Position numbers and translations under genes: made by a program. A stretch of 64,000 nt of DNA from Dasypus novemcinctus (taxonomy: Eukaryota; Chordata; Mammalia; Cingulata; Dasypodidae), in assembly GCF_030445035.2 (NCBI RefSeq), contig NC_080699.1, positions 806,001 to 870,000 on the forward strand. Reading direction: 5' to 3'. The notes under the pieces are model-generated. The model did no database searches, was not told the DNA's origin, and saw only the letters and a program-made list of their open reading frames with translations. Below, one piece after another: positions 1 to 46,390 of the stretch. The first letter of the stretch is position 1. Every line of letters starts with the position of its first letter.

Positions 1-490
1 ACTCACTTTCAGTAAATTTTCTGAGATTCTGCTATTAGGAAACCCAAATTTTCTCAAGTTGCTTTCAACAATCACTGTGTTTCCTCATTTATATGTAAAA
101 GAAGTTGGTGGTTTGTTGGTGAATTTCATGTCGCCTTGGCTAGGCTTCAGTACCCTGTTGTTGGTGAAGCACTGCCTAGTTGTTACTGCGAGAGTATTTT
201 GTAGGTGGGATTTGCACCCATAATTAGTTGATTGCATCTACAATCAACAAAGGAGATTGTCTTCAGCAATGTGTGTCATCCCTTATCCAGTCAGCTAGTG
301 GTCTTAAAAGCCAAAACTGAGCATTTCGGGGGTCATCTTCAGCATTGACTCTTGCTGGAATTTCTAACTAGCCGATTTTCCTGGGGAACTCTAAGGAATT
401 CAGCGTCGCCTTTACTGGGGGTTCCAGACTGCATCTGCCAGAGTTCAGACTTGCCAGTATCTGTGGTTGCCTAAGCCAATTCCATATAAT
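1..490 (+). repeat. Left half of an old interspersed repeat split by the U6/L1 insertion
   Basis: AT-rich to mixed sequence with no open frame of note. Its last bases (near 484-493, TATAATAAA) resume at about 2971 on the far side of the L1/U6 unit. The right part ends near 3047 in a segment reading TTCTGGAGAACTCTGGCTAATACAG, which is the familiar edge of an old mammalian interspersed repeat. I cannot name the family. The split is seen directly; the family assignment is inference. Confidence 0.45.
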
Positions 491-529
491 AAAAGTCAAA
501 ACTTCTTTTTAAAAAAAATTTATTGAAGC

Positions 530-1540
530 TTATCATTCATACATGAACATACATAAACAATAAGTATACAGTAATATTTGTGAACTTATAAAACAAACAT
601 ATACAACATCATACAGGGCTCTAATACCTCACCCTACCACAATACCTTGCATTGTTGTTAAACATTTTTAATGACTAAAGAGCATCCTCAAAATATTACT
701 ACTAACAAAAGTATTTTCCCCCCAACCCACCCTATTATTGTTATCTTTATATCATTTATATATGAACATATATAAAAAAATTAAGTATATAGTAAAAGTT
801 GTGAACTTACAAAGCAAACATGCTTGACATTTTACAGGGGTCCCATACATCAATTCTCCACCAACACCTTGCAATGTCATGAGACATTTATTACAAATTA
901 TGAAAGAATATTATCAAAATCTTGCTACTAATTATAGTTCTTTTTTTTTTTTTTTTAATTTAAAGATTTATTTATTTATTTAATTTCCCCCCCTCCCCTG
1001 GTTGTCTGTTCTTGGTGTCTATTTGCTGCGTCTTGTTTCTTTGTCCGCTTCTGTTGTCGTCAGCTGCACGGGAAGTGTGGGCGGCGCCATTCCTGGGCAG
1101 GCTGCTCTTTCTTTTCACGCTGGGCGGCTTTCCTCACGGGCGCACTCCTTGCACGTGGGGCTCCCCCACGCAGGGTACACCCTTGCGTGGCACGGCACTC
1201 CTTGCGCGCATCAGCACTGCGCATGGCCAGCTCCACACGGGTCAAGGAGGCCCGGGGTTTGAACCGCGGACCTCCCATATGGTAGACGGACGCCCTAACC
1301 ACTGGGCCAAAGTCCGTTTCCCTAATTATAGTTCTTATCTTATATTTGGTGTATTTTTCCCCCAACCTACCCTAATATTATTTTTAAAATATGTTTTTAT
1401 GACAGAAGTTGTAAACTTACGAAACAACCAGGTACATGTAAAGAATTCCCAAATGACATCCCTCTATCAACACGGCACACTGTGGTGGTACATTTGTTAC
1501 AGATTATGAGATAATATCATCAGATTATTACCAGGTCCAC
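530..1540 (-). repeat. Three imperfect tandem units in the L1 3' UTR
   Basis: Units near 530-745, 746-930 and 1335-1540 share the same order of words: a GTGAACTTA(C/T)AAA-like block, a CA-rich block, then a cysteine-like ACACCTTGCA or ACACTG block, and a CCCCAACCYACCCTA spacer. The third is displaced by the SINE at 942-1321. Unit length is about 200 bp. Duplicated blocks in an L1 3' UTR are seen here directly; whether this is typical of the subfamily I cannot tell. Confidence 0.55.
942..1321 (-). mobile_element. DAS-type tRNA-derived SINE
   Basis: A poly-T start and a GGGCCAAAGTCCGTTTCC end show minus orientation. Read on the minus strand it opens with the tRNA-like head (GACTTTGGCCCAGTGG, then GGTTTGAACC-like B box, seen reversed as GGTTTGAACCGCGG). 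It lies in the L1 3' UTR and is flanked by an exact 14-bp target-site duplication CTAATTATAGTTCT at 928-941 and 1322-1335. Confidence 0.92.
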
Positions 1541-2174
1541 AGCGTACTTTCGGCACATTTTTTCCATACTCCCCCATTATCAACACTGTACCTCTTTGGC
1601 ATAGATGCATGAATATTACACTATTACTGCTAACCACAGTCCCTAGGTCACTCCAGTTGTGTTTTCCCCATGCTTCTCCACATTCCCACCACCCTGCAAT
1701 AGTTTGCTCTAGCTAACAAAGACACTCTTGCTTTTGTACCATCAAGCACAATTCTCATCCACTTCTTGGTTTACTGTGCTATTCAGTTCCTAGATTATTC
1801 TCTAGCATTTTGTCAATTGGCATTTACATACCTAGACTACCATTTTCAGCCACATCCCCATTTATAAAACTAACTGTTACTCACCATGTGTTACCGTCCA
1901 CTCTATACATTTCCACACTTTTACAGTAAAGCTAATTAAAACTTTTACATACATTAAGCATCAGCAGTCCGCTCAGTCCTCCTCTTATCTCCTTTAAGAA
2001 TCTACCACCTACCACCAGGTCTTGAAGATATTTTCCTACATTTTCTTCTAGAAGTTTTATGGTTCTTGCTTATATATTAAGGTTTTTTATTCATTTTGAG
2101 TTAATTTTTGGATAAGGTGTGAAGTAGGGGTCCTCTTTTCTTCCTGTGGCTATGGATATCAAGTCCTCTCAGCA

Positions 2175-2540
2175 CTAGTTGTTGAATGGACCAGGTGGGT
2201 TTGATGGGCTTGTCAAATACCACTTGACACACATGCGAGGGTCTGTTTCTGAACCATGGATTTGATGCCATTGGTCTATGTGTCTGTCTTTATACCAGTA
2301 CCTGGCAGTTTTTACCAGCGTAGCTAGGTAATGTGATTTAAAGTCTGGAAGTGAGAGTCCTCCAACGTTGCTTTTCCTTTTCAGGACCCCTTTCACCTTT
2401 CCAGATAAATTTGATAATTGTGTTTTCCATTTATTTAAAAATACTGGTGGAAATTTTATTGGGATTGCATTGAATCTGTATATCAATTTGAGTAGACTTG
2501 ACATCTTAATGATATTTAGTCTTCCAATATGTTCTTCCAA
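2175..2540 (-). pseudogene. L1 ORF2 C-terminal remnant
   Basis: An open frame of 121 codons aligns with the region of the young L1 ORF2 after the reverse transcriptase palm. Shared words include [16 protein letters not shown] and LPDFK. It is only a fragment of a protein normally near 1,270 residues and lacks endonuclease, catalytic FADD and the cysteine-rich end, so it cannot be functional. It belongs to the 5'-truncated L1 of the U6/L1 chimera. Confidence 0.85.
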
Positions 2541-2859
2541 TTATTTAGACCTTTTAAAATTTCTTTTTTAACATTGAGTTGTAGTTTTCTGAATACAAGT
2601 TCTTTACATTGTTGGTTAAGTTTATTCCTGAATATTTCGGTTTTATCTGCCATATTTTATTTTCACTACTCTTTTGACACTTTTAATTACTTTTATTGAT
2701 ATAATCTTCATTTCTAGACTCTCTTCCAGGCCTCTCTCTCCTGTCTTTTCTTTTCAGGCTGTAGTACACCTTTTAGTATTTCCTGCAAATCCGGTCTCTT
2801 GGTTACAAACTCTCTCAATTTCTGTTAATCTGTGGATATTCTAAACTCGCCCTCATTTT

Positions 2860-2970
2860 AAAAAAAAACATGGAACAGGTCATGAATTTGTGTGCCATCC
2901 TTACACAGGGGCCATGCTAATCTTCTCTGTATCATTCCAATTTTAGTATATGTACTGCTGAAGCAAGCAC
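2860..2970 (-). pseudogene. RNU6 (pseudogene): U6 snRNA retropseudogene fused to L1
   Basis: On the minus strand this is essentially a full-length U6 snRNA. It starts GTGCTTGCTTCAGCAG at 2970, carries the invariant ACATATACTAAAATTGGAA and ACAGAGAAGATTAGCATGG blocks, and ends in GTTCCATG plus nine T at 2860-2868. By hand I count about 14 differences from the mammalian U6 sequence, mostly C-to-T or G-to-A as expected from CpG decay. The oligo-T end is followed at once by L1 ORF1 sequence in the same orientation, so U6 and L1 form one chimera. The mutated 5' end and lack of a recognisable proximal sequence element argue against expression. Confidence 0.93.
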
Positions 2971-3047
2971 TGTATAATAAATTTTTACACACACAGGTGC
3001 ACATCTCAGTGATTCTGTTTTTCTGGAGAACTCTGGCTAATACAGAT
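2971..3047 (+). repeat. Right end of the repeat split by the U6/L1 insertion
   Basis: Starts with TGTATAATAAA, which repeats the TATAATAAA left at 484-493, and ends with GGCTAATACAGA. Joined to the left part across the insertion it gives a continuous repeat end. The 9-bp identity is the best candidate for the target-site duplication of the chimera. Confidence 0.5.
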
Positions 3048-8105: not shown

Positions 8106-8537
8106 GAGGCTGTCTCTGTATGGTCTCCAGGTGGGTCTGGCAGGGGTGGAGTCAAAGGTCTTCTCTTTAATGTTGTAGAAATCGACGACTGTGACAAAAT
8201 AAATTCACTGTGTGGGTTCAACATCAGAGCAAGGATATCAGTGAACAATGTAAGGACAAATTAATCGAAATTATATCATCTGAAGTACAGGGAGAAAAAT
8301 ATTAAAGTAAAATATATAGAGCCTCAAAGACCTGTGGTATAACATCAGATGTTCTAACAAATTTATAATGAAGTTAAAGAAGACAGTGAAAATGACAAAA
8401 TTAAAAATTAAGTAATAAAGCCAAAATCCCAAAATTTGATGAAAAGCATTGATTTATAGGTCCAAGAAACATGGAAAATTCCAAAGAGGATAAATATAAA
8501 GAAAGCTTCTGCAAACCAAATATGAAGAGAAAGGGGG

Positions 8538-8957
8538 GGCGGGGGACTTGGCCCAGTGGTTAAGGTGTCTGTCCGTCTACCACATGGGGGCCGTGGTTCA
8601 AACCCCGGGGCCTCCTTGACCTGTGTGGAGCAGGCCCATGCACAGTGCTGATGCGCGCAAGGAGTGCTGTGCCACACAGGGTGCCCCCCACATAGGGGAG
8701 CCCCACGTGCAAGGAGTGCACCCCGTAAGGAGAGCCGCTCAGCGTGAAAGAAAGTGCAGCCTGCCCAGGAATGGCGCCGCCCACACGGAGAGCTGACACA
8801 GCAAGATGACGCAACAAGAAGAAACACAGAGTTTCAGTGCCTCTGATAAGGATAGAAGCGGACAAAGAGGACACAGCAAATGCACACAGAGAACAGACAA
8901 CAGGGGTTGGGGGGAGAGGTGAGAGAAATAAATAAATAAAATCTTTGAAAAAAAAAA
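8538..8957 (+). mobile_element. DAS-type SINE inserted in arm A only
   Basis: The tRNA-like head starts GGGACTTGGCCCAGTGG and the element ends in AAATAAATAAATAAAATCTTT plus poly-A. The matching position in arm B (about 29125-29130) runs straight through with only a short G/C run, so the SINE arrived after the duplication. The flanking A- and G-runs make the target duplication hard to delimit. Confidence 0.9.
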
Positions 8958-9441
8958 GGGGGAAAAGTGTACCACATGATGGGAAAACTGGTAAGAATCA
9001 GAAACGTCAAAAACAATGGAGTCCAGAAGACAACGAGGGAGCATCTTTAAAGAAATGAAAGGAAAACCTGTTAACCCATAATTTTATATGCAGTGAAAAT
9101 AACCTTCAAATGAGAAAAAGTAAAGACATTTTTAGATAAAATTTAGCTGAGAGAACCTGTCACCAGGAGAAGCACACTACAAAAAAATGCTAAAGCTGTT
9201 TCTCGGGCTGAGGGGAAATAATAGCATTTGGAAACTTAATTATACCCTAAGAAAAGAACACCCACTAGAAACTGTGCTTGTTTTTCTTTTCATAATTGTC
9301 TTACGAGACAATTGACAATTGAAAGTAAAGATACTAGCAGGGTTTGCCTCCTACCCGTCCCTGAGCAAGCCCCACGCACCTGCATAAATCCCGCTCTTCC
9401 CTCCAGCCTGCCCTCTGGCGACGGCGACGTCTCAGCACCTG

Positions 9442-10095
9442 GTGGCTGAGAAGCTGCATGAACGTCTCATCGCTGACTCCAGACTCACCACGAGTCCCTC
9501 GGCTGGACACTGCCTTCCCCGTCCAGGCATCGGGACCACTGAGAGCCTGAGTCCTGAGAGGCCAGCGCAGACCCCAGCCAGGAGCGTGTCTTGCCCCCTC
9601 AGTGCCTACTCGTCCACGTGGCTGCCCAGGCAGGATTGCTGGGAAAGAGACGTCCAGCTTCGACTTGAGCCTCCCACCCGCACCTCTAGATTAGACACAG
9701 ATGTAGATCCTGAGATGAGACTTCTCTCTGAAACAAAATGCAATGGCGTTGTGAAGGGCCCAGCGATGCTGGGGGTATGTGGACCTCACCTTCATGGCTT
9801 CCCAGAAGACAGTCAGACCTTCCCAGAACACTGCCTTCCAGAGCCGTTTCTCTCGGGGGTTCCCACCAGCCACAGGGCTGGCCAGCAGTCCATCAGCTGG
9901 ACAGAGAGGGCTCGTAATTCTAGGGCAGGGTGGGGCAAGGCAACGCCCTTATTTAAATTATTTTGGAGATTTAGAAATAAAGGATTGTTATTTCCAAAGA
10001 GATCTTTTAACATTTCTAATAACAATTACATTTTTAAATTTTGCTCTTGCGCTACAGTGATTGTTGGCCTGTTCCTAGAAGCATTCAATGAATAG
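9442..10095 (+). other. Open frame in the duplicated core, probably non-coding
   Basis: 217 codons, with a related 177-codon frame on the minus strand in arm B (28125-28658). The first 150 residues agree closely. Of the differences I can trace in the shared frame, six change the residue and one is silent, so there is no sign of protein constraint. The frames diverge at the C-terminus by an indel. No domain is recognised, and no signal peptide or membrane segment is apparent. Read as a shadow of recent duplication. Confidence 0.4.
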
Positions 10096-10418
10096 AAAGT
10101 GGTTTGTGTTGGCTACAGTATTTCATATCACTTTCATGCTACTGTTTATATTGGCTAAATTTGCATTTTTACTTTGATCCTGGGATTATACTATGCCCCC
10201 GATTCAAAAATTGGAGCAAGGTCTTAAATATGATTTACTGAAGTATAAAAGTCATAATGAAAACAATAACAGAAATGCAACATTTCAAAATAAAGCCATA
10301 AATAGCAAAAGGCATTCTAGTGTAAATATTGATTATAAATTCATACTGCAATATGTGAGTCTCTGAGAATGACAATTTTCTACAGCAGTCAAAAAGAGAA
10401 AGTCCCTTACATAAAACA

Positions 10419-10551
10419 CAGTGGTACTCGTCATTAAGTGATTCTGGGAGACATGATGAGTACCGAAAGCAACAAGTACCAAACAATTTTTTCCAAAAAG
10501 TGTAAAGTAATAAAGTTAATGTGTTCCCAAAGACACTGCACATTTCTAAGG
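10419..10551 (-). mobile_element. Truncated Tigger transposon end in arm A
   Basis: Starts CAGTGGTACTCGTC, a slightly deleted form of the terminal repeat whose complement ends the complete Tigger at 27662. It stops at the arm boundary, about 130 bp in, with no remaining transposon beyond. This marks arm A as the derived copy. Orientation is opposite to the Tigger of arm B. Confidence 0.8.
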
Positions 10552-27519: not shown

Positions 27520-29480
27520 ACCTTAGAATGTGCAGTGTCTCTGGGAACACATTAAATTTATTTACATTATTCCTTATGAGAAAAAATTGTTTGGTACTTG
27601 TTGTTTTCGGTACTCATCATGTCTCCCAGAATCAGTTAAGGACGAGTACCGAGGTTCCACTGTGTTTTATATAAGTGACTTTCTCTTTTTGACTGCTGTG
27701 AAAAATTATCATATTCAGAGATTCACATACTACAGTAAGAATTTATATATATATTTACCTTAGCATGCCTTTCGATATTTATGACTTTGTTTTGAAATGT
27801 TGCATTTCTGTTACTGTTTTCATTATGTCTTTTATACTTCAGTAAATCACATTTAAGACCTTGGCCCAATTTTTGAATCGGAGGCATAGTATAATAACAG
27901 AATCAAAGTAAAAATGCAAATTTAGCCAATATAAACAGTAGCATGAAAGTGATATGAAATACTTTAGCCAATACAAACCACTTTCTATTCATTGAATGCT
28001 TCTAGGAACAGGCCAACAGTCACAGTAGCGCAAGAGCAAAATTTAAAAATGTAATTGTTATTAGAAATGTTAAAAGATCTCTTTGGAAATAACAGTGCTT
28101 TATTTCTAAATCTCCAAAATAATTTTAAAAAGGGCATTGCCTTGCCCCACCCCGCCCTAGAATGACAGAGTCCCCTCTGTCCAGCTTGATGGACTGCTGG
28201 CCAGCCCTGTGGCTGGTGGGAACCCCCGAGAGAAACGGCTCTCGAAGGCAGTGTTCTGGGAAGGTCTGACTGTCTTCTGGGAAGCCATGAAGGTGAGGTC
28301 CACATACCCCCAGCATCGCTGGGCCCTTCACAATGCCATTGCATTTTGTTTCAGAGAGAAGTCTCCTCTCAGGATCTACATGGGTGTCTAATCTAGAGGT
28401 GTGGGTGGGAGGCTCAAGTCGAAGCTGGACGTCTCTTTCCCAGCAATCCTGCCTAGGCAGCCACGTGGACGAGTAGGCACTGAGGGGGCAAGACACTCTC
28501 CTGGCTGGGGTCTGCGCTGGCCTCTCAGGACTCAGGCTCTCAGTGGTCCCGATGCCTGGACGGGGAAGGCAGTGTCCAGCCGAGGGACTCGTGGTGAGTC
28601 TGGAGTCAGCGATGAGACGTTCATGCAGCTTCTCAGCCGCCAGGTGCTGAGACGTCACCGTCGCCAGAGGGCAGGCTGGAGGGGAAGAGCGGGATTTATG
28701 CAGGTGCGTGGGGCTTGCTCAGGGAGGGGTAGGAGGCAAACCCTGCTAGTATCTTTACTTTCAGTTGTCAATTGTCTTGTAAGACAATTATGAAAAGAAA
28801 AACAAGCACACAGTTTCTAGTGGGTGTTCTTTTCTTAGGGTATAATTAAGTGTCCAAATGCTATTATTTCCCCTCAGCCCGAGAAACAGCTTTAGCATTT
28901 TTTTGTAGTGTGCTTCTCCTGGTGACAGGTTCTCTCAGCTAAATTTTATCTAAAAATGTCTTTACTTTTTCTCATTTGAAGGTTATTTTCACTGCATATA
29001 AAATTATGGGTTAACAGGTTTCCCTTTCATTTCTTTAAAGATGCTCCCTCGTTGTCTTCTGAACTCCATTGTTTTTGACGTTTCTGATTCTTACCAGTTT
29101 TTCCATTGCGTAATATGCTTTCCCCCCTTTCTCTTTGTATTTGGTTTGCAGAGGTTTTCTTTATATTTATCCTCTTTGGAATTTGCTGTGTTTATTGGAC
29201 CTATAAATCAATGTTTTTCATTAAATGTTGGGGTTTTGGTTTTATTTCTTCAATTTTTAAATTTGCCATTTTCACTGTCTTCTCCTTTAACTTCATTATG
29301 AATTTGTTAGAACATTTGATGTTATCCCACTGGTCTTTGAGGCGCTATATATTTTACTTCAGTATTTTTCTCCCTGTACTTCAGACTATATAATTTCTGT
29401 TAGTATGTCTTTATATTATTCACTGAGATCTTTGATCTGATGTTGAACCCACACAATGAATTTATTTCATTATTGTACGT
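27520..29480 (-). repeat. Arm B of the inverted duplication
   Basis: Reverse complement of 8175-10551. On its left side the Tigger element continues beyond the arm (to 25478), and on its right side the old L1 continues beyond 29480 (to about 29590). Neither continues beyond arm A, so B appears to be the ancestral site. The arm lacks the SINE found in A. Confidence 0.9.
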
Positions 29481-31929: not shown

Positions 31930-34862
31930 TTTCTCTTTTCACCATTTTATTTTATTTTTTAAGATACATAGGTATCTTAAATGTTACATTAAAATGTTAC
32001 CTTAAAAAATATAAGCGGTTTCCATATATCCCACTCCCCACACCCCTCACTTTCCCACATCAACAACCTCTTTCATCAGGGTGGCACATTCATTGCCTTT
32101 GATGAATACATGTTGGAGCACTGCTACACAGCCTGGATTATAGTTTACGTTATAGTTTACACTCTCTCTTGTCCATTCAGTGGCCTATGGCAATATATAA
32201 TGTCCTGCATCTGTCCCTACAAAATCATTCAGGACAACTCCAAGTCCAAAATATGTGCCATATCACATCTCTTTTTCCCTCTCCCTGCCTTCAGCAACTC
32301 CCATGGCCACTGTCTCTACATCAGTGATGTAATTTCTTTCATTGCTAGAGTCATAATAATTCTATAATAGAATACCAGTAAGTCCACTCTAATCCATATT
32401 TTACTCTTCCATCCTGAGGACCCTGGAATGGGAATGCCCATTCCACCTCTAAATTGAGAGGGGGCTTAGATCCCACATGGCTGTTGGATGGGGTTCTCCT
32501 GCTTGCAGATGTAGACTCTCTCAGTTTCTTGGTGTGGTGGTTGACCATCCTCATCTCCTTGTTAGTTGATCTGGGTAAGTCCAGCGAACTGGAGAGTAGG
32601 TGTTGTAACTCTGCTGAGGCTCGGGGCCCAGCTGGCACATGGCCAGTCCAGAGATTCAAGTTTCTGAATATACACCATCCCCAGCACCAACCACAGGTTC
32701 AGTAAAAGTGACAGAAGAGACACATGTAGAAAGGTCACATCTGAGTCTAACTCCATCACACTCAGGAGCACAAATTCCAAAGTGAGCCCACTGGCAAGGC
32801 AGAGAACTCCAGAGCCATCAGCCATGACTATAGAACCTGTGTGTCTCTGTAGCCCTCAGAAGTACCAGTACCTGGGGTTGTATCTATTTTGGCTGTCTCT
32901 GAGATCCTGCTGAGATGTACATAAATGCAATCCCTCTGATGACCTCCCGACTCATTTTGAAGTCTCTTAGCCATATAAACTCATTTGTCTTTACCGTTTT
33001 TCCCTTTTATTCAAGGTCTTTCTAGTTGCATCACCAGCTGGTGCTTGGTAGTAAGCCCTTGGTGCCAGTGAAGCTCATCCTGGGAGTCATGTCCCATGCT
33101 GGGGGGAAGGTAATGTGTTTACACTCTGAGTTTGGCTTATAGTGTGGCCACATTTGAGCAACATGGATGCTCTCAGGAGGTAACTCTTAGGCACCCTACA
33201 GCTCGAGACCTAGTTGAAATTTCAAGCACAGGTTCATAAGCATAGTCAACAATGTCAAGGGCCCATCAATGGACCATCCTTCTTCACTGGTCTTTGCCCT
33301 TGCACTCGGAGGATTGCTGATGTTCCACTGAGGACTGTGACACAGCTCCCCTGGCTAGAACTCAGCACTCCCTCAGTTGTCGTGTGTAATTCTGCTCTAT
33401 GTCAATACCCAATGAGCATCTGAACTTATCTATATACCCTATTTGCATGCCCTGGAGAACTCCCTCCCATGCATCCCCCATCAGTGACACCCACACAAAT
33501 GCTCCACCCCTGCCATAGTTGAACCCCTCTGTGATCCAAAACTTCTTCAGAAATGAAGCCTAAAATATTGCCAAATTCAATTAATAGGAAAATAAAATAG
33601 TAATGATAGGTGTAAAGATTAGAAATAAAATACATAATAATTTAGAAAAAGTAAAATAAAGTAAAAAATAAATTCAGGTATTAAAAAATGAAAAATATCA
33701 TACAAAATTCTTTTTATTTTTGCCTTTCATCACTGCAGTAGGTGTTGTCCTATATGTACAGTGGCAAGGCAATCTCTTCCATTTCTTCCTCAGTGTCTTA
33801 CTTTTTTTTTTTTTTTAATTATGTCTTCAAAAAAGTTTTAGGTCACAGCAAAGTCACATACAGAATATAGGGGAATCCCATATACCCAATATTCTCCTCC
33901 TTTTCCCCCTGGCCAGCAATGATCTTTTTACATCTGGATGTTATATTTGCTACAGCTGATGTATAGATATTGAAAAATAGCTACTAACCATGGTTCCATT
34001 TGGTTTACATTATGGTTTATATTTTAGACTGTACACTTTTCTAAATTTTTAGTTATATTATGGTTTACATTTTAGACAATATACTTTATAAATTTTTGGT
34101 GAAATTTAATATGGCCTATATCCATCATTGCATGACCTTGTGGAACACTTCCATTGCTCCTCAGTTACCCCCCTTCCATCTATTCTATTCCTCTCTCCAC
34201 TTCCCCTCGGGGCCCACAGTGACAACCAAGCTTCACTGTTTGAAGAACCAGATTTATAGATACTTGCGACAATGCTGAGGGCTTGACACGCTAGTCTGTC
34301 CTCCCCAATTGGGAGCCACCAATGCTCTCAAGAGACACTCTTCCCTCTGTTTGAGAGCATCAGGTCTCCCCAAATGGGGGAACAACACCTTCCTGCTCAT
34401 TGTATGGGTCTCCACCCCCTGATATAACACACTGTGCAAGATGAGCACTCACACGCTCCCCAGAAGCCTGCCCCAGGTGCACCCTGTGCCAGATGCTCCC
34501 ATCAGACACCTTAAACCAGTAACCCTTCCTTATTAATTTTTCTAAGGATCTTTCTCAACGTTATAGTTTCAACCACTTAACTGACAATCTCCCACGTTCA
34601 CCAGCTCCCCCCAAAACCTCCCCCCAATTTCACGGACCATCTGACCCATCCTCCCAACCCTAACTCCCCTCAAGCCTGCAAAGCCCCATCCAATAGTATC
34701 CTTATACCCCTGTCTTATCCCTTCCCTGCACAACTACTTACCTTCACTTTATCATAGATTTCGCCCATGCTGGCATCAGCTCACAACCTTTCTCTCCCCT
34801 GCAATTTCCTGTAAGCTTATCATCCAGTCTCTAGCTCTCTGAGACAGCTTGATTTGCTTATT

Positions 34863-37800
34863 TCATATTAGAGACGTCATGTGGTATTTGTCCTTCAATG
34901 CCTGGCTTGCTTCACTCAACATAAGGTCCTCAAGATTCATCCATGTTATCCCATGTGTTAGTACTGTATTCCTTCTTACAGCTGAGTAGTATTCTACTGT
35001 ATGTATATACCACATTTTGTTTATCTGTTCATCTGTTGATGGGCATTTGGGTTGATTCCAACTTTTGTTAATAGTGAATAATGCCACTATGAACATTGGG
35101 TGTGCATATATCAGTTTGTGTCCTTGTTTTCCGTTCTTCTGGGTATATACCGAGAATTGGAAATGTTGGGTTATATGGCAAATCTATAGCTAGTTTTTTG
35201 AAGAATTGCCAAGCTGTCCTCAACAATGGCTGGATCCTTCTGCATTCCCACTGCAGTGGATAAGGGTTCCCATTCCTCCACATCCTCTCCAACGTTTGTA
35301 GTCCTCTGTTTTTGTTTTTTTTTTTAATAACTGCCAGTCTAACGGTTGTAAGATAGTATCTCACTGTAGTTTTGATTTTCATTTCCCTAATAGCTAGTGA
35401 TGTTGAGCACCTTTTCATGTGGTTTTTAGTAATTTGTATTTCTTCTTTGGAGAAGCATCTGTTCAAATCTCTTGCGCATTTTAAAAATGGATTGTTTGTC
35501 TTTTTATTTTTGAGATATAAGATTTCATTATATATGCTGGATATTAGGCTTCTATCAGATATATGGTTACCCAATATTTTCTCTCATTGGGTAGGCTGTC
35601 TTTTCACTTTCTCGATAAACTCCTTTGAAGTGAAAAAGGTTTTAATTTTGAGGAGGTCCCATTTATCTGTTTTTTCTTTCACTGCTTTTGCTTTCATTGT
35701 GAAGTTCATGAAGCCATTTCCTCTTACAAGTTCCTATAGATGCTTCCCTACATTGTCTTCCAAGGTCTTTATGGTCTTGGCACTTATATTTAGATCTTTG
35801 ATCCATCTTGAGTTGATTTTTGTATAATGTGTGAGATGGTGTTCCTCTCTCATTCTTTTGCATACGGATATCCTGTTCTCCAAGCACCATTTGTTGAAGA
35901 GGTCATTTTCTCCCACTTGAATGGACGTGGTGGCCTTGTCGAATATAAGATGACTGTATATGCAAAGATCTGTATCAGAACTCTCAGTTTAGTTCCAGGG
36001 GTCAGTATGTGTATCCTTGTGCCAATACCATGCCATTTTGACCACTATAGCTTTGTATATGTCTTTGGCTATTTGGGGCCTCTTTCCCTTCCAAATAAAT
36101 TTCATAGTTAGATTTTCCAGTTCATTAAAAAAATGCTGTGTTGATTTTTATTGGGATTCCATTAAATCTGTAGATCAGTTTGGGTAGGATAGACATCTTA
36201 ATGATGTTTAGTCTTCATATCCCTGAACATGGAATGTTCTTCCATTTATTTAAGACTTCTTTGATTTCCTTTAACAGTGTTGCGTAGTTTTCTGTGTATA
36301 AGTCTTTTACATCTTTAGTTAAATTTCTTCCTAGGTATTTGATTTTTTAATTTACTGTTGTAAATGGTATTTTCTCTTGATTTCTTCCTCAGAGTGCTCA
36401 TTATTCGTGTACAGAAATGCTACTGATTTTTGTGCATTGATCTTATAACCTGAGACTTTACTGAACTGATTTATAAGTTCTTGAAGCTTTGTTGTAGATT
36501 TCTCAGTGCTTTCTATGTATAGGATTATGTCATCTGCAAATTGTGAAATTTTGACTTTTTCCTTTCAAATTTGGATGCCCCTTACATCAGTTTCTTGCCT
36601 CAGTGCTCGAGCAAGTACTTCTAACACAATGTTAAGTAGGAGAGGTGATATGTGCATCTTGTCTTGTTCTTGATCTTAGAAAGAAATATTTTAGGATTTC
36701 ACCATTGTGTATGTTAGCTGTGGGTTTTTCATATTTACTCTTTATCATGTTCAGAAAGTTTCCTTCTATTCCTATCTCTTGTTGCGTTTTTATCAGGAAA
36801 GTTTGCTGTATTTTGTCAAATCCTTTTTCTGCAACTACAGATATGAGCATGTGACTTTTCCCTTCAATCTGTCATGTGGTGTGTTACATTGATTCCTTAC
36901 GTTGAACCATCCTTGCACATCAGGATGAAGCCACTTGGTCCTGGTGTGTAATTCGTTTGATGTGCTGCTGAATTTGATTAGCAGGTATTTTGTTGAGGAT
37001 TTTAGCTTCCAGGTTCATTAAAGATATGGGTCCGTAATTTTCCTTTCTAGTGGTGTCTTTTGCATTGGTATTAGGGTAATGTTATCATCATAGAATGAGT
37101 TAAGCAATGTTCCTTCATTTCAATTTTTTGGAAGAGTTTAAGCAATATTCGTGTTAGTTCTTTATGGAATGTTTGGTAGAGTTCACCTGTGACGCTGTCT
37201 GGCCCTGGGCTCTTCTTAGTTGGGAGGTTTTTAATGACTGATTCTATCTCTTTACTTGTGCTTGGTTTGTTGAAATCATCAATTTCTTATTTCATCAATG
37301 TAGGCTGTAGAAACATCAATGTGTTTCTGGAAATTTGTCCATTTCCTCTACATTGTCCTCTTTGTTGGCATATAGTTTTTCAAAGTATCCTCTTACGATA
37401 CTCTTTATTTCTGAGGGGTCACTAGTGATAGTCCCTTTCTCATTTCTTATTTTATGCATTTGTAACTTCTCTCTTTTTTCTTTTTAGTCTAGCTAAGGGT
37501 TTGTCAATTTTATGGATCTTCTCAAAGAACCAGCTCTTTGTTTTCTTTATTTTTTTCTAGTGCTTTATTATATTCTATTTCATTTAGTTCTGTTCTGATC
37601 TTTGTCCTTCCTTCCTTCCTTCCTTCCTTCCTTCCTTCCTTCCTTCCTTCCTTCCTTCCTTCCTTCCTTCCTTCCTTCCTTCCTTCCTTCCTTCCTTCCT
37701 TATTAGTTTGTTGTTTTTTTTACTAATTCCTCCAAGTGTACAATTAGATCTTTGATTTTAGCTCTTTCTTCTTTTTTTTGACATATGAATTTATGGCTAT

Positions 37801-38795
37801 GAATTTCCCTTTCAGTACAGCTTTTGCTGCATCCCGTAAGTGTTGATATGTTGTGTTGCCATTTTCATTTGTTTCAAGGTAGTTACTGATTTCTTTTGAG
37901 ATTTCCTCCTTGACCCACTGTTTGTCTAAGAGTGTATTGCTTAACTTTCATATCTTTGTACCTAATCTAGTTCTCTGGCCCTTGTGGATTTCCAGCTTCA
38001 TTCCATTGTGGTCAGAGAAATTACTTTGTATGATTTCGTTCTTTTTGAATTCATTGAGACTTTTTCTTTTGTCTAGCACGTGGTCTATCTTGGAGAATGA
38101 TCCACATGCCCTTGAGAAGAAGAATGTATATCCTGCTGTATTTGGGTGTAGTGTTCTGTTTATGCCTACTAGGCCCAGATCCTCTAATATATTGTTCAAA
38201 GTCTTTGTTTCTTTATTGATTCTCTATCAAGATGTTCTGTCTAACAGTGATAATGGTGTATTAAATTCCCCAGTATAATTGTAGAGGCATCTATTCCTTC
38301 ACTTAGTTTTTCCAGTGTTTGTCTCATGTATTTTGAAGTGCCCTAGTTATGTGCATAAATGTTTATGATTGTTCTTTCTTCTTGAAAGATTACCCCTTTT
38401 ACTAATATACAGTTTCCATTTTTGTCTCTTACAATAGTTTTTCATTTAAAGTCTATTTTGTACAATAGTATAGCTAGCACTCCTGCCCTTTTTTGGTTAT
38501 TGTTTGTTTGCAAGATTGTTGGCCAGCCACTCACTTTTAACCTCCTTGAATCCCTGCATCTAAGGTGGGTTTCTTGTAGACAGCACATAGATGGGTCACA
38601 TTTCCTTATCCATTCTGCCAATCTGTGTCTCTTGACATGTGAGCTTAATCCATTAACATTCAGTGCTATTACTCTCAAGGAAATACTTACACTTGTCATA
38701 TTTTCTTTGTATTTGTGTGTGTCATTTATTGTTTTTATTTCTCTTTTTGTCTTTTTAGTTGTTCTTACACTCTCCTCCAAGTCTGTCTCTCCTGT
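34863..38795 (-). pseudogene. ORF2 (L1): Older L1 ORF2, disabled
   Basis: The same protein as in the young L1, read in many short frames: endonuclease (near 38442-38780, SLRVIALNVNGLSSHVK and CCLQETHLR), a thumb-like part, and the C-terminal part (34863-35890, e.g. NPYPLQWECRR). Stop codons and frameshifts run throughout, and the reverse transcriptase palm reads only in patches. A large TTCC microsatellite at 37605-37702 sits inside the frame. Not functional. Confidence 0.85.
37605..37702. repeat. (TTCC)n microsatellite in the older L1
   Basis: Uninterrupted CCTT repeats of about 24 units. At the equivalent place the young L1 has only TTTCCTTCCTTCTTC (near 44318), so the array probably grew out of this L1 seed. 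Confidence 0.97.
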
Positions 38796-38967
38796 TTTGT
38801 TTTGTTTTTTCTTTCAACCTGCAGAACTCCCTATAGTATTTCTTGAAGGGCAAGTTTCTCATTGGCATACTCTCTTAGTTTCTGTTTATCTGTGAATATT
38901 TTGAACTCTCCATCATTTTTGAATGCCAGCTTTGCTGGATAGAGTAATCTTGGCTGGAATTTTTTTT

Positions 38968-41519
38968 TTTTAATATTTATTTATTATTATTATTTTTAAT
39001 TACATTAAAAAAAATATATGAGGTCCCATTCAACCCCACCGCCCCCGCCCCCCACTCCCCCCACAGCAACACTCTCTCCCATCATCGTGATACATCCATT
39101 GCACCTGGTAAGTTCATCTCTGAGCATCACTGCACCCCATAGTCAATGGTCCACATCATAGCCCAGACTCTCTCACGTTCCATCCAGTGGGCCCTGGGGG
39201 GATCTACAGTGTCCCGTAATTGTCCGTGAAGCACTATCCAGGACAACTCCACGTCCCGAAAATGCCTCCACATCTCATCTCTTCCTCCCGTTCCCCACAC
39301 CCAGCAGCCCCCATGGCTACCGTTCCCACACCCATTCCACATTTTCTCTGTGGACATTGGATTGGTTGTGTCCATTGCACACCTATGTCAAGTGAGGGCT
39401 TAGATTGCACATGGGTACTGGATGCACTCTTCCCGCTTCTAGTTGTAGACACTCTAGGCTCCATGTTGTGGTGGTTGACCTTCTTCAACTCCATGTTAGC
39501 TGAGTGGAGTAAGTCCAATAAGTCAAAGTGTAGGAGCTGAAGTCTGTTGAGGCTCTGGGCCTGGGTGTCATATTATCAGTCCAGAGATTCAAATCCCCTA
39601 CATATATCTTAAACCCAGCACCAACTACAATTCCAATAAAGTAGCATGCAAGTCTTGTGAAAAGAGATCCCCTCTGAGTCCATTTCCATCACGCAGAAAC
39701 ACCAGCTCCAAAGAAGGGCCATCTGTCATGGCAGTGAACCCCTTCTGCCATGACCATAGAACCCGTGGGTCTCTTTATCCCTCAAAAGAACCAATACCTG
39801 GGGTTGTATCTACCTTATCTGTCTCTTAGACTCTGTTCAGTTGTACATAGGGGTATTCCTTCTGACAACCTCCAGACTCTTTTTTAGAGACTCACAGCCT
39901 TATAATCTCATTTCTCCTTTCCATTTCCCCCTTACATTAGGTCAAACCGCTTCCCGAAGTCATGTTATTATATGTAGACAGGTATATTCTGCTGTTCCGC
40001 ATTGAATCTTTGATTCAAGGTCATTTTCTAGTTGCTTCTTCAGCTGGTATGTGGTAGTGATCCCTCGGTGCCAGGGAGGCTCATCCCCGGGTGTCGTGTC
40101 CCACGCTGGGGGGAATGCATCACATCTACACGCTGAGTTTGGCTGTGAGAGTGGCCACATTTGAGTAACATGAAGGCTGTCAGGAGGAAACCCCCAGGCA
40201 CAATGCTACTCTAGGCCTTGTTCTTATTGCAGGTGCATAGGCTCAAAAGTGTAGCCATTAGTATCAAGAGCCCACTGTTGGGCCCTCCTTCCTTCCTGGT
40301 TCTTGCCGTTGCACCTGGAGGATTGCCGCTGCTCTCCCAGGGCCCACAACAGTGACCCCCTGGCCAGGAGCCCAGTACCCCCCCAGCTGTTGTTTTTAAT
40401 TGTTTCCACTATGAGTATATATAGACATTACCATATACCCTGGGCATATGCCCTGTATAACTCCCTGTCAACCATATATATCCTGTCAATAACATCCCAT
40501 ATCAGTATTCCTCCGCTGCCATTGTTGAACCACTCTGTGATCCAAAACTTCCCGTAAAGTGAATCCCAACATAATGCCAGCTTCAGAAGAGTGTTAGATC
40601 ACCAAAATTCATATATATAATATACAGTATTTCCCCAGATCCACCATAAAACCTTTTCCCTTCCACAGCAATAATCTTTTAACTTATTCATATCATATTT
40701 CCTGAAACTGATGTACAGATTCCGAAACTATAGTTTTCAAACAAGGTAACATTTGTGCTTACTATGTGGTCCATACTTTAGGTTGTACAGTTTTCTAAAT
40801 TTTTTAGTTATCCTATGTTTTGTCTTATGGTTTTCATTATTAGTCTGTCGTCCCCTATATGTTTTTGGTGTAACATTAGCTGTTTTATATTCATCCTCGT
40901 GTACTCTCACATAACTCCTCTTTTGCCCCCTTATTTACCTTTGTTCCATCCATTGCACGTCCATTTTCCCCTCCCCTTAGGGCCCACAATGCCTGCCAAT
41001 CTAATGCCCTGGGAGCCGTCCTTTCTCACGAGAGATACAGTTCTCTCTATTCGATGGCATTAGTCTTCCCCAGGATATGGGTCCACCCCACCCAATGGTA
41101 GAACCCACCTTGGCAAAATGAGCCTTCAGCTATTCCCTCCGGAGTCCGTCCCACATCAGACCATACCCCCTGAGCGTCCTAACCAGGTAACCCTCCTACT
41201 TATACTTTGATACGTTTTACTCAACATTTAGTTCTCAATGAACTTCTGGCACTCTCCCATGTTTGTATGTTGCCCCTCCCTCCCACCTATTTCTTGGACC
41301 ATATTACCCCTCTTCCCATCCCCAGCCCCCCTCAAACCCAGAAAACCCCACCCGAAGGTAACCCCTTGCCCCCATTTTGTCCCTTCTTTGTGCTCATACT
41401 TACCCCCAGCTCATCACAGATTCCACCCCTACAGACATTAACTCACAGCCTTCCTCCACCCCCCGATTTCCAGTAAGCCACTTTTCCAGACTCTAGCTCT
41501 CTGAGGCAGCTAACTTATT
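38968..41519 (-). other. Long 3' UTR of the young L1
   Basis: Starts after the ORF2 stop near 41520 and ends in the oligo-A. It is 2.55 kb. A C-rich block (reads GCCCCCGCCCCCCACTCCCC on plus, near 39040) makes a G-rich tract in the RNA near the 3' end, a common feature of L1 3' UTRs. It aligns in order with 10826-11730 and 31960-34860. Confidence 0.85.
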
Positions 41520-44500
41520 TCATATCATTGAGGTCATATAGTATTTGTCCTTCAATGCCTGGGTTGCTTCACTCAACATAAGATTCTCAAGGTTCATCCA
41601 TGTTATCACGTGCGATTGTAGTGTATTGGTTCTTACAGCTGAGTAGTATTCCATTGTGTGTATATACCACATTTTATTGATCCACTCATCTGTTGATGGA
41701 CTTTTGGATTGATTCCAACTTTTGGCGATGGTGAACAATGCTGCTATGAACATTGGTGTACATATATCGGTTTGTGTCCTTGTTTTCAGATCTGATGGGT
41801 ATATACCCAGCAGTGGTATTGCTGGGTCATATGGCAAATCTATGGATAATTTTTTGAGAAACTGCCAAACTGTCCTCCAGAATGGTTGGATCCTTCTGCA
41901 TTCCCACCAGCAATGGATGAGTGTTCCCCTTTCTTCACATCCTCTCCAGCATTTGTATTCTACTGTTTTTTTCATGGCTGCCAATCTTATGGGAGTAAGA
42001 TGGTATCTCATTGTAGTTTTGATTTGCATTTCCCTGATAGCTAGGGATTTGGAGCATTTTTTCATGTGCTTTTTAGCCATTTGTATTTCTTCTTTGGAGA
42101 AGTGTCTGTTTAAATCTTTTCCCCATTTTTTAAATGGGTTGTTTATCTTTTTGTTTTCGAGATCTATGAGTTCTTTATATATGCAAGTTATAAGTCTCTT
42201 ATCAGATATATGGTTGCCAAATATTTTCTCCCATTGTGTGGGTTCCCTTTTTACTTTCTTGACAAACTCCTTTGAGGTGCAGAAGGCTTTAATTTTGAGG
42301 TAGTCCCATTTATCTATTTGTTCTTTTGCTGCTCGTGCTTTTGGTGTGATATTCATGAAGCCATTTCCTATTACAAGGTCCTGTAGATGTTTCCCTACAC
42401 TGCTTTCTAAGGTCTTTATGGTCTTGGCTCTTATATTTAGGTCTTTGATCCATCTTGAGTTGATCTTTGTATAAGGTGTGAGATGGTAATCCTCTTTCAT
42501 TCTTCTTCATATGGCTATCCAGTTCTCCAGGCACCATTTGTTGAATAGGCCATTCTCTCCCAGTTGTGAGGGTATGGTGGCTTTATCGAATATTATATGG
42601 CTATATACATGAGGTTCTATATCTGAACTTTCAATTCGATTCCATTGGTCTGTGTGTCTCTCCTTATGCCAGTACCATGCTGTTTTCACTACTGTAGCTT
42701 TGTAGTATGTTTTGAAGTCAGGAAGTGTGATTCCTCCTATTTCGTTTTTCTTTTTCAATATGTCTTTGGCTATTCGGGGCCTCTTTTTATTCCAAATAAA
42801 TTTCATAGTTAGTTTTTCTAGTTCCTTAAAGAAGGCTGTGTTGATTTTTATTGGGATTGCATTGAATGTGTAGATCAGTTTTGGTAGGATAGACATCTTA
42901 ATAATATTCAGTCTTCCTATCCATGAACAGGGAATATTCTTCCATTTATTTAGGTCTTCTTTGATTTCCTTGAACAATCTTGTATAGTTCTCGATGTATA
43001 AGTTTTTTACCTCTTTAGTTAAATTTATTCCTAAGTATTTGATTTTTTTATTTACTATTGTGAATGGTATTTGTTTCTTGATTTCCTCCTGATCTTGCTC
43101 ATTATTGGTGTATAGAAATGCTACTGATTTTTGCGCATTGATCTTATAACCTGCGACTTTGCTAAACTCATTTATGAGTTCTAGGAGCTTTGTTGTAGAT
43201 CTCTCAGGGTTTTCTATATATAGGATCATGTCATCTGCAAATAATGAAATTTTGACTTCTTCCCTTCCAATTTGAATGCCTTTTATATCTGGTTCTTGTC
43301 TCAGTGCTCGAGCCAGTACTTCCAAGACAATGTTAAATAGGAGCGGAGACAATGGGCATCCTTGTCTTGTTCCTGATTTTAGAGGGAAGGATTTCAGGAT
43401 TTCGCCATTGTAAACAATGTTGGCTTTAGGTTTTTCATATATACTCTTTATCATGTTCAAAAAGTTTCCTTGTATTCCGATCTTTTGGAGTGTTTTTATC
43501 AGGAAGGGGTGCTGTATTTTGTCAAATGCCTTTTCTGCATCTATAGATATAATCATGTGGTTTTTTTCTCTCAATCTGTTTATATGGTGTATTACATTGA
43601 TTGATTTTCTTATGTTGAACCATCCTTGCATACCTGGAATAAATCCCACTTGGTCATGGTGTATAATTCGTTTAATGTGTTGTTGAATACGATTAGCAAG
43701 TATTTTGTTAAGTATTTTTGCGTCTAGGTTCATTAGAGAAATTGGTCTGTAATTTTCCTTTCTTGTGGTGTCTTTGTTTGGCTTTGGTACTAGGGTAATG
43801 TTGGCATCATAGAAGGAATTAGGCAGTGTTCCTTCTGTTTCGATTTTTTGGAATAGTTTCAACATGATTGGTGTTAGCTCTTTCCGGAATGTTTTGTAGA
43901 ATTCCCCTCTGAAGCCGTCTGGCCCTGGGCTCTTCTTAGTTGGGAGATTTTTAATGACTGATTCTATCTCTTTGCTTGTGATTGGTTTGTTAAGATCATC
44001 AATTTCTTCTTTCATCAGTATGGGCTGCTTATGTATTTCTAGGAATTTGTCCATTTCCTCTAAATTGTCATTTTTGTTGGAATATAGTTTTTCAAAGTAT
44101 CCTCTTATGATAGTCTTTATTTCTGTGGGGTCAGTGGTGATATCACCTTTCTCATTTCTTATTTTGTGTATTTGCATCTTTTCTCTTTTTTTCTTTGTTA
44201 GTCTCGCTAAAGGTTTGTCAATTTTGTTGATCTTCTCAAAAAACCAGCTCTTGGTCTTGTTTATTTTTTCAAGTGCTTTCTTATTTTCTATTTCATTTAG
44301 TTCTGCTCTTATCTTTGTTATTTCCTTCCTTCTTCTTCCTGTTGGGTTACTTTGTTGTTGTTTTTCTAATTCCTTCAAATGTGCAGTTAATTCTTCAATT
44401 TCTGCTCTTTCTTCTTTTTTGATATATGAATTTATGGCTATAAATTTCCCTCTCAGTACCGCTTTTGCTGCATCCCATAAATTTTGGTATGTTGTGTTAT

Positions 44501-45338
44501 CATTATCATTTGTTTCAAGGTAGTCATTGATTTCTTTTGAGATTTCCTCTTTGACCCACTGTTTTTCTAAGAGTGTGCTGTTTAATTTCCAAATTGTCGT
44601 GTGAAGTCTGGGTCTCTGTCCCTTGCAAATTTCCAGCTTGACTCCACTGTGGTCAGAGATATTGTTTTGTATGATTTCGATCTTTCTGAATTCATTAAGC
44701 CTTTCTTTGTGGCCTAGCATATGGTCAATCTTGGAGAATGTTCCATGTGCGCTTGAGAAAAATGTATATCCTGCTGTGTTTGGGTGTAATGATCTATATA
44801 TGTCTATTAGATCCAGCTCTTCTAATATACTGTTCAAATGTTTTGTTTCTTTAGTGATTCTCTTTTGAGATGTTCTGTCCAGAGTTGATAGTGGTGTATT
44901 AAAATCCCCCACTATAATTGTAGATGCAGCTATTCTTTCACTTAGTTTTTCCAGCGTTTGCCTCACGTATTTAGAGGCGCCCTTGTTAGGAGCATAAATA
45001 TTTATGATTGTTCGATCTTCTTGACAAATTGTCCCTTTCACTAAAATATAGTATCCTTCTTTGTCTCTCACAATTGTTTCGCATTTAAAGTCTATTTTGT
45101 CTGATATTAATATAGCTACTCCTGCCTTTTTTTGGTTGTTGTTTGCTTGTATGATTGTTTTCCAGCCATTCACTTTCAACCTCCATGAGTCTCTGGGTCT
45201 AAGATGTGTCTCTTGTAGGCAGCATATAGATGGGTCGTATTTCCTTATCCAGTGTCCCAGTCTGAATCTTTTGATAGGTGAGTTTAATCTGTTGACATTC
45301 AGTGTTATTACGTTTAGAGAGTTATTTATGGTAGCCAT
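41520..45338 (-). pseudogene. ORF2 (L1): L1 ORF2 protein (endonuclease / reverse transcriptase), one in-frame stop
   Basis: From the likely start MATINNSLN (ATG ending the N-terminal extension; an upstream in-frame ATG at 45434 would overlap ORF1) the frame spans 1,272 codons, about the length of human ORF2p (1,275). In order: apurinic-type endonuclease with [19 protein letters not shown] and SDHSGVKLE; reverse transcriptase with [16 protein letters not shown] and the catalytic FADD; and a cysteine-rich tail C-x3-C-x7-H-x4-C near CWRGCEERG. The frame is broken once, by TGA at 42509-42507, between CLENWIAI and the next codons AGA AGA ATG. The older copy here has TGC (Cys) there. The part after the stop is 326 codons from its first ATG at 42500. 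The truncated product would retain endonuclease and polymerase but lack the cysteine-rich tail. Readthrough or sequencing error is possible. Confidence 0.9.
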
Positions 45339-45418
45339 ATTTTGGTTGGATTTGTGTTTGTTATATTTTGTTTGTATTATTTTATTTTCCCCTTCTATTT
45401 TTGTCTTTCTTGTTGCTT

Positions 45419-46390
45419 TTACACTCTCCTCCATCTCTGACTGTCCTGTTTTTTCCTTTCTTCCTGCAGAATTCCCTTAAGAATTTCTTGAAGGGGAGGG
45501 TTCTTGTTGATATACTCTTTCAGTTTCTGTTTATCTGTGAATATTTTGAACTCTCCATCATTTTTGAATGCTAGTTTAGCTGGATAGAGTATTCTTGGTT
45601 GGAGATTTTTTTCCTTTAGTACCTTGACTATATCATACCACTGCCTTCTTGCCTCCATCGTTTCAGATGAGAAATCAGCACTTAATCTTATGGAGTTTCC
45701 CTTGTATGTGATGGTTTTCTTTTCTCTTGCTGCTTTTAGAATTTTTTCTTTGTCTTGAGCATTGGATAATTTGACAAGTATATGTCTTGTGGTGGGCCTG
45801 TTGGGGTTTATGACCAGTGGAGTGCACTGTGCTTCTTGGATATGTACATCTGTCTCTTTCAGTAGATTTGGGAAGTTTTCAGCTATTATTTCCTGCAACA
45901 CTCCTTCTGACCCCTTTCCCTTCTCTTCTCCTTCTGGAATGCCTATAATACGTATGTTTGAGCGTTTTGCGTTATCATTCAGGTCCCTAAGTCCTATCTG
46001 GATTTTTTCTACCTTTTTATTGACCACTTCTACTATCTGTTTGATTTCCAATGCACTGTCTTCCACATCACTAATTCTCTGCTCTGCCTCTTCTAGTCTG
46101 CTGATATTTGCTGCAAGTGTATTTTTGATTTCTTGAATTGTGGTGTTCATTTCCATCATATCTGTTATTTTTTTGCGCATGTCTGCAATTTCCCCTCCAA
46201 GTGTTGTCTTCACGCTGTTAACCTCTTTCATTACTTCATCAAATTTGTCGGTGATAAATGTTCTGAGATCTTTCATTGCTTGTGCGAAGTCCTGCCCCCC
46301 TTCCTGATTTTCAGTTTGTTGATTGGATTCAGCCATGTTTTCCTGATTACTGGTTTGGTTTGTAGATTTTTGTTGCTGTCTTGTCAACAT
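45419..46390 (-). CDS. ORF1 (L1): L1 ORF1 protein (RNA-binding chaperone)
   Basis: 323 codons, unbroken, near the 338 of human ORF1p. In sequence order it has a long coiled coil (about residues 20-145, e.g. [13 protein letters not shown] through [13 protein letters not shown]), an RRM (about 150-245, from [11 protein letters not shown]) and a C-terminal nucleic-acid-binding domain (about 250-320, with [18 protein letters not shown]). The protein trimerises on L1 RNA and acts in the ribonucleoprotein for retrotransposition. It lies upstream of ORF2 in the same direction, with about 80 bases between its stop and the likely ORF2 start. An intact frame of this length in a retroelement argues for a recent insertion. 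Confidence 0.93.

Follow-up and report, generated by a model that had tools for sequence, protein, structure and literature searches.

The minus strand of the window (the whole stretch of Dasypus novemcinctus DNA that was analysed, 64,000 nucleotides) carries a full-length U6 snRNA retrocopy joined directly to a 5'-truncated L1, and its sequence makes one chimeric insertion event by far the best reading of the whole insert. The best explanation of this event is probably that mature U6 RNA was ligated to L1 RNA before reverse transcription. The single locus is ordinary; its value lies in a U6/L1-rich genome whose junctions bear, without experiment, on the choice between ligation and template switching.

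Results

Architecture of the locus

Read 5' to 3' on the minus strand, the locus consists of host repeat, TTTATTATA, two bases, U6, T9, L1, 12 bases, TTTATTATA and host repeat again, and the insert spans 494-2972. The observed features are as follows.

1..493, no strand: left part of a host dispersed repeat, class unnamed (paralogous copies from the joined-flank search; 301-493 formed part of the query)
485..493, no strand: left copy of the TATAATAAA target site duplication, on the 3' side of the insert in minus-strand reading (sequence, joined-flank search, chance test)
494..505, minus: 12 bases of unexplained origin that separate the L1 tail from the left duplication (absent at the 3' end of the relative L004)
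506..2030, minus: L1 3' untranslated region and short A tail (collinear with relatives; L004 served for comparison at the 3' end; inner bound set approximately by eye)
943..1321, minus: tRNA-derived SINE, which we take to be of the DAS type (armadillo SINEs), a later insertion into the L1, flanked by its own 15-bp duplications (928-942, 1322-1336)
2178..2542, minus: ORF2 remnant, approximately human ORF2p residues 807-911 (phmmer to PDB chain 8uw3_A, E 3.4e-24, and four other sequences)
2714..2858, minus: remnant of the ORF1 C-terminus (dsRBD-like domain), which forms the 5' end of the L1 part (PF17490, 26.2 bits; alignments)
2860..2868, minus: T9 tract at the U6/L1 junction, overlapping the last U6 model positions
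2864..2970, minus: full-length U6 snRNA retrocopy (Rfam; comparison with the modal young U6)
2971..2972, no strand: two additional bases that separate U6 from the right duplication (sequence)
2973..2981, no strand: right copy of the TATAATAAA target site duplication, on the 5' side of the insert in minus-strand reading (sequence, joined-flank search, chance test)
2982..3045, no strand: right part of the host repeat, which resumes beyond the insert (joined-flank search, alignment)

The U6 copy matches RF00026 (Rfam) over model positions 1-105 of 105 (101.7 bits, E 2.8e-25). The L1 starts at 2859 (AAAATGAGGG), runs downwards in the same orientation as U6 and has a short A-rich end near 506. These matches, together with PF17490 at the L1 start, confirm the first-pass annotation, which had described a full-length minus-strand U6 joined directly to L1 ORF1 sequence of the same orientation. 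Compared with the modal young U6, the copy differs at 13 of 102 positions and has lost all seven CpG sites, indicating that the insertion event is old.

The insert is bounded by the 9-bp direct repeat TATAATAAA at 485-493 and 2973-2981. The first-pass annotation had recognized this duplication, with coordinates off by one (484-493 and 2972-2980). A match of at least 9 bases at the duplication positions arose by chance in 25 of 20,000 draws from the window and in 124 of 20,000 shuffled flanks. The 9-bp duplication implies the cut AATAAA/TTTTT, unlike the usual TTTT/AA site of the L1 endonuclease. An alternative 14-bp duplication, AAAAATTTATTATA (after GTGTGT), gives the canonical cut TTTTT/AC, but a 12-bp interruption is needed in one copy. 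The endonuclease motif TT/AAAA is absent with the 9-bp duplication and present with the interrupted 14-bp reading.

Several other features were observed in the window. Inverted copies at 8197-10551 and 27521-29467, approximately 17 kb apart, are 94% identical across one segment of 1618 bases and 88% identical across another of 346 bases. A minus-strand L1 at 38960-46444 encodes an ORF1 of 341 aa and an ORF2 of 989 + 328 aa, with Pfam endonuclease, reverse transcriptase and L1 ORF1 domains, and it has a long 3' untranslated part in common with the young U6 chimeras. A second, more broken L1 copy lies at about 34300-38900, and a very GC-rich repeat with a copy spacing of 40-53 bases occupies 47171-47449.

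The L1 partner

The L1 part begins with the ORF1 C-terminus (PF17490, 26.2 bits against a cutoff of 22.2; one stop given as X). An ORF2 piece begins approximately 170 bases past the ORF1 stop, and the 3' untranslated region then follows; most of ORF2 is missing as an internal deletion. The Pfam search of the ORF2 remnant gave no match, while the PDB sequence search did match. The relatives L002, L006, L007 and L008 are collinear with the window across the same ORF2 gap in single alignments, and PF17490 is also present in L007. Because the gap is common to relatives, it is a feature of the family and not damage to the window copy. This layout resembles that of HAL1 (half-L1) elements, which are described as encoding ORF1p only (PMC5753468), and membership of the partner in that family is putative.

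Evidence for a single insertion event

The two flanks were joined at the duplication and used as the query of a whole-genome search, with matches listed from 40 of 131 candidates. The query matches the window as two pieces, 1-193 and 185-257, whose overlap is exactly 9 bases. Among the matches listed, 38 lie outside this locus, and 8 of these cross the join by more than 20 bases. All 8 were fetched, and the insert was missing from each, with small length differences just after the join (paralogous sites). The remaining 30 reach no further than query position 205, many ending at 190-199 as the repeat turns variable, and are uninformative either way. The host repeat had no match in the rest of the window or in 95 other loci. 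The host repeat runs through in all 8 join-crossing paralogs, in agreement with the earlier claim that its text continues across the gap.

The U6 is complete and lies two bases from the target duplication, and its oligo-T abuts the 5'-truncated L1 directly, with neither an A tail nor a duplication in between. An A tail and an own duplication are hallmarks of a U6 poly(A) retropseudogene, and the window U6 has neither. A target duplication between U6 and L1, which the first-pass annotation had named as counting against a single insertion, was looked for at the junction, and none was seen. One insertion event, as had been proposed for the U6 and the 5'-truncated L1, is supported on four grounds: a duplication flanks the whole insert, paralogs of the host repeat are unbroken at the site, no duplication separates U6 from L1, and many sister insertions take the same form.

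Sister U6 loci

A genome search with Rfam gave at least 48 U6 matches, of which the top-scoring ones were taken, and a 28-base pattern of the U6 3' end gave 302 genome matches (100 listed; control, 0). The sample of 88 U6 loci comprised the 48 top Rfam matches and 40 of the 100 listed pattern matches, namely 26 with a perfect 3' end that were not already collected and the first 14 with one change. As raw counts, 44 of the best 48 U6 copies have a flanking exact repeat of at least 9 bases, and 40 have one of at least 12 bases. Of these 44 repeats, 34 start with AA and 38 are preceded by T or C; the repeat ends at the first U6 base in 38 of the best 48 copies.

A usable L1 reference was available for 60 of the 88 loci, which formed the junction sample. 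The others were 5 loci beside a DAS SINE, 9 with A-rich tails (among them the duplicate L053), 1 further duplicate (L059) and 13 without a usable reference; the SINE and A-tail labels were assigned by eye. The L1 set used for checking consisted of long chimera inserts and two minus-strand L1 copies of the window, one of which has a Pfam-supported ORF1 and ORF2 (L1 ORF1 domains, endonuclease and reverse transcriptase). Among the 60 junction rows, 58 match checked L1 sequence, the exceptions being L060 and L065. The longest L1 insert, L042, lacks a long open frame and matches the end of the Pfam-supported window L1, indicating that it is an L1 with a long 3' untranslated region.

In L022, L035, L076, L081 and L093 (5 of 88 loci, by eye), U6 is joined to a DAS-type SINE and not to L1; snRNA/Alu cases are given as rare in human (Doucet 2015, PMC4476161). 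In L016, L020 and L040, the sequence after U6 matched neither the L1 references nor a SINE and is accompanied by an A-rich tail and a flanking repeat; these three are possibly U6/mRNA chimeras.

Base composition of the junctions

Of the 60 junctions, 46 have a run of five Ts, 2 a run of four and 12 a longer one, in a sample whose loci were chosen with at least four Ts and in which the Rfam score favours five, so that shorter tails were missed. Four Ts were found in 5 of the 40 pattern-chosen loci. Exactly five Ts occur without an upstream L1 T at 34 junctions, and those five therefore come from U6. At the long runs, the L1 reference has a T just upstream in 12 of 12, and these Ts suffice for the observed length in 11; in L092, the run exceeds five plus its L1 Ts by one. 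An upstream T was present at 13 of the 48 other junctions compared with 12 of 12 long runs (Fisher P 3.7e-6).

Sorted into long runs, short runs with an upstream T and neither, the junctions number 12/13/35, compared with 14.1/11.2/34.7 expected for random blunt joining of a five-T U6, for junctions that align from the first L1 base; joints with added bases, which could be a mark of template jumping, fall outside this set. The counts are 10/13/35 without L060 and L065. The observed values fit random blunt joining, indicating that shared bases are not in excess at the junctions.

The first L1 base shows a mild enrichment of A (26 of 60, 17.2 expected, uncorrected P 0.011) and a depletion of C (4 of 60, 10.0 expected, uncorrected P 0.019). 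Plain blunt joining does not predict this mild and unexplained departure. The first-pass annotation had further noted that the AAAA at the L1 start would pair with the oligo-U end of U6. An AAAA start occurs in 1 of 60 sister junctions compared with 3.4 expected, so such pairing is no general rule; what stands of the idea is the mild over-representation of A as the first base. The breakpoint dinucleotides of the 60 junctions were AA 7, TG 7, GA 7, GG 6, CA 6, TA 6 and AG 5, with all others at most 4, and in these counts, taken without a background comparison, no RNase-A-type cleavage rule (pyrimidine before purine) was evident.

Discussion

Joining of U6 and L1

We propose that a hybrid arose by end-to-end joining of mature U6 RNA with the 5'-incomplete RNA of an internally deleted, half-L1-like element. 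Most likely, an RtcB-type ligase would have linked the 2',3'-cyclic phosphate end of U6 to the 5'-hydroxyl of the cut L1 RNA before reverse transcription. The L1 machinery, acting in trans, would then have copied the hybrid into the host repeat by target-primed reverse transcription, and the SINE would have arrived later, inside the L1 part. Two elements of this scheme are what we infer: that U6 and L1 were ligated rather than connected by a blunt template jump, and that another element provided the L1 proteins.

Moldovan 2019 is said to be the original report of U6/LINE-1 RNA ligation. RNA ligation of U6 and LINE-1 RNA is described in a review (PMC13247085). The primary transcript of human U6 is described as carrying four Us and as maturing to five Us with a 2',3'-cyclic phosphate (PMC10415362). 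The five-T pattern observed in the sister junctions matches this mature, ligatable form of human U6. The near-constant five-U end and the blunt joining thus favour ligation of mature U6 over homology-guided template switching, as support and not as proof. Counting against the preferred reading are the unusual cut implied by the 9-bp duplication, the two bases beside U6, a T9 tract that exceeds five Ts, the base bias at the L1 start and the over-long run of L092.

Template switching, in which the L1 reverse transcriptase leaves the L1 RNA and continues on the U6 3' end during target-primed reverse transcription, would also give one insertion. Doucet 2015 (PMC4476161) interprets the chimeras in this way, and Law and Burns 2026 (PMC13174262) include it as one of their two models. 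A blunt end-to-end template jump could leave the same scar as ligation, and ligation does not account for the mild preference for A as the first L1 base. However, shared Ts are not in excess in the 60 junctions, where short runs with an upstream T number 13 compared with 11.2 expected, and U6 contributes five Ts in nearly every case, as mature human U6 would. We consider template switching unlikely. The first-pass annotation had attributed the chimera to this process; that attribution keeps some probability, while the junction counts and the later work cited in the review (PMC13247085) lean to RNA ligation.

We see an even chance that the U6/L1 chimeras of this genome are a genome-wide scar of RNA ligation, with a five-U mature end, no excess of shared bases and near-random L1 breakpoints apart from the mild A excess and C lack at the first base. 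If this is true, a genome rich in such events is a natural record of the sites at which L1 RNA was cut before ligation. A narrow literature search found no published version of this junction test.

The L1 breakpoint and nested insertions

All 16 of the other L1 copies aligned at the junction extend further upstream as L1, across CTTTC/AAAAATGAGGG or a closely similar sequence (four of the seven other excised loci from the window-junction search and 12 short fetched stretches). Three further copies with nested insertions at the breakpoint, L003-L005, were kept apart from these 16. In the window, U6 replaces the L1 bases upstream of the breakpoint. Because the L1 extends upstream in all 16 other copies, the window breakpoint is real.

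The T9 tract may consist of five U6 Ts and four Ts from the L1 TTTC with one C-to-T change. This reading also requires one A fewer than in most relatives, and L002 likewise has four As. Slippage or a longer U tail is equally open as the source of the tract.

Independent nested insertions were found at the same ORF1 site, CTTTC/AAAAATGAGGG. L003 (1480-1650) has a U6 with an A tail and L1 on both sides, L004 (1120-1520) and L005 (1315-1520) have SINEs, and each of the three shows an imperfect duplication of L1 bases. Within this L1 family, the endonuclease may favour the site; the three copies were found by a search favouring U6 and T runs, and their number is no measure of a hotspot. A hotspot of chimera formation at AAAATGAGGG was also considered and dropped, since L003, L004 and L005 are nested insertions with imperfectly duplicated L1 bases. 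In L117 (600-690), a 3'-truncated U6 (approximately the first 45 bases) is nested in L1 ORF1 with the duplication GAAGCACAATGT on either side, and it sits approximately 270 bases further upstream in ORF1 than the window breakpoint site.

The nested U6 of L003 and the nested SINEs of L004 and L005 lie at the very L1 site of the window breakpoint, and they lend some plausibility to a two-step origin, in which the L1 came first, U6 then entered the CTTTC/AAAAATGAGGG endonuclease site and the L1 upstream of U6 was lost. The window, however, has no L1 upstream of U6, no AAAATGAGGG beyond U6 and no A tail on U6. Moreover, two bases separate the host duplication from the start of U6, and a deletion would need to end exactly there. 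We regard an origin in two steps as very unlikely.

That the U6-L1 hybrid is a multi-copy element, itself amplified, is scarcely credible: U6/L1 pairs are very numerous in the genome, but L1 breakpoints and flanks vary between copies across the 88 loci, the two same-flank pairs (L036/L053 and L058/L059) look like copies of genomic regions, and among the matches listed for the window junction (41 rows) only L003, a nested case, matched U6 next to this L1 site, the second listed U6 match being the truncated U6 of L117, nested elsewhere in ORF1 with its own duplication.

Comparison with known systems

The preferred reading, a single insertion of a probably ligated U6-L1 RNA, places the locus among the known U6/L1 chimeras. 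Such chimeras were the subject of Buzdin 2003 and Garcia-Perez 2007, as cited in Doucet 2015 (PMC4476161), and for the human lineage Law and Burns 2026 (PMC13174262) catalogue 180 U6/LINE-1 chimeras without deciding between ligation and template switching. The first-pass annotation had presented the locus as extending the phenomenon to a new lineage. This cannot be upheld, as Doucet 2015 (PMC4476161) already covers the armadillo lineage, with 174 analysed U6 copies, 136 of them with repeats, the highest of 48 genomes.

In common with mammalian U6/L1 chimeras, the window locus has a full-length sense U6 at the 5' end, a direct joint after the oligo-T, a 5'-truncated L1 and a flanking duplication. 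It differs from them in that its L1 is internally deleted, its duplication is short and, if read as 9 bp, implies a non-canonical cut, and the copy is old, with all CpG sites of U6 lost. The U6 poly(A) retropseudogene in L003 resembles the window in having U6 beside the same L1 site; in L003, by contrast, the U6 carries an A tail and sits between stretches of L1 with L1 bases duplicated, all of which is missing from the window copy. As in HAL1 elements, the relatives of the L1 partner retain ORF1 without most of ORF2, and this layout recurs in several copies. In contrast to HAL1, a short ORF2 remnant is present, and the window copy itself keeps only the end of ORF1.
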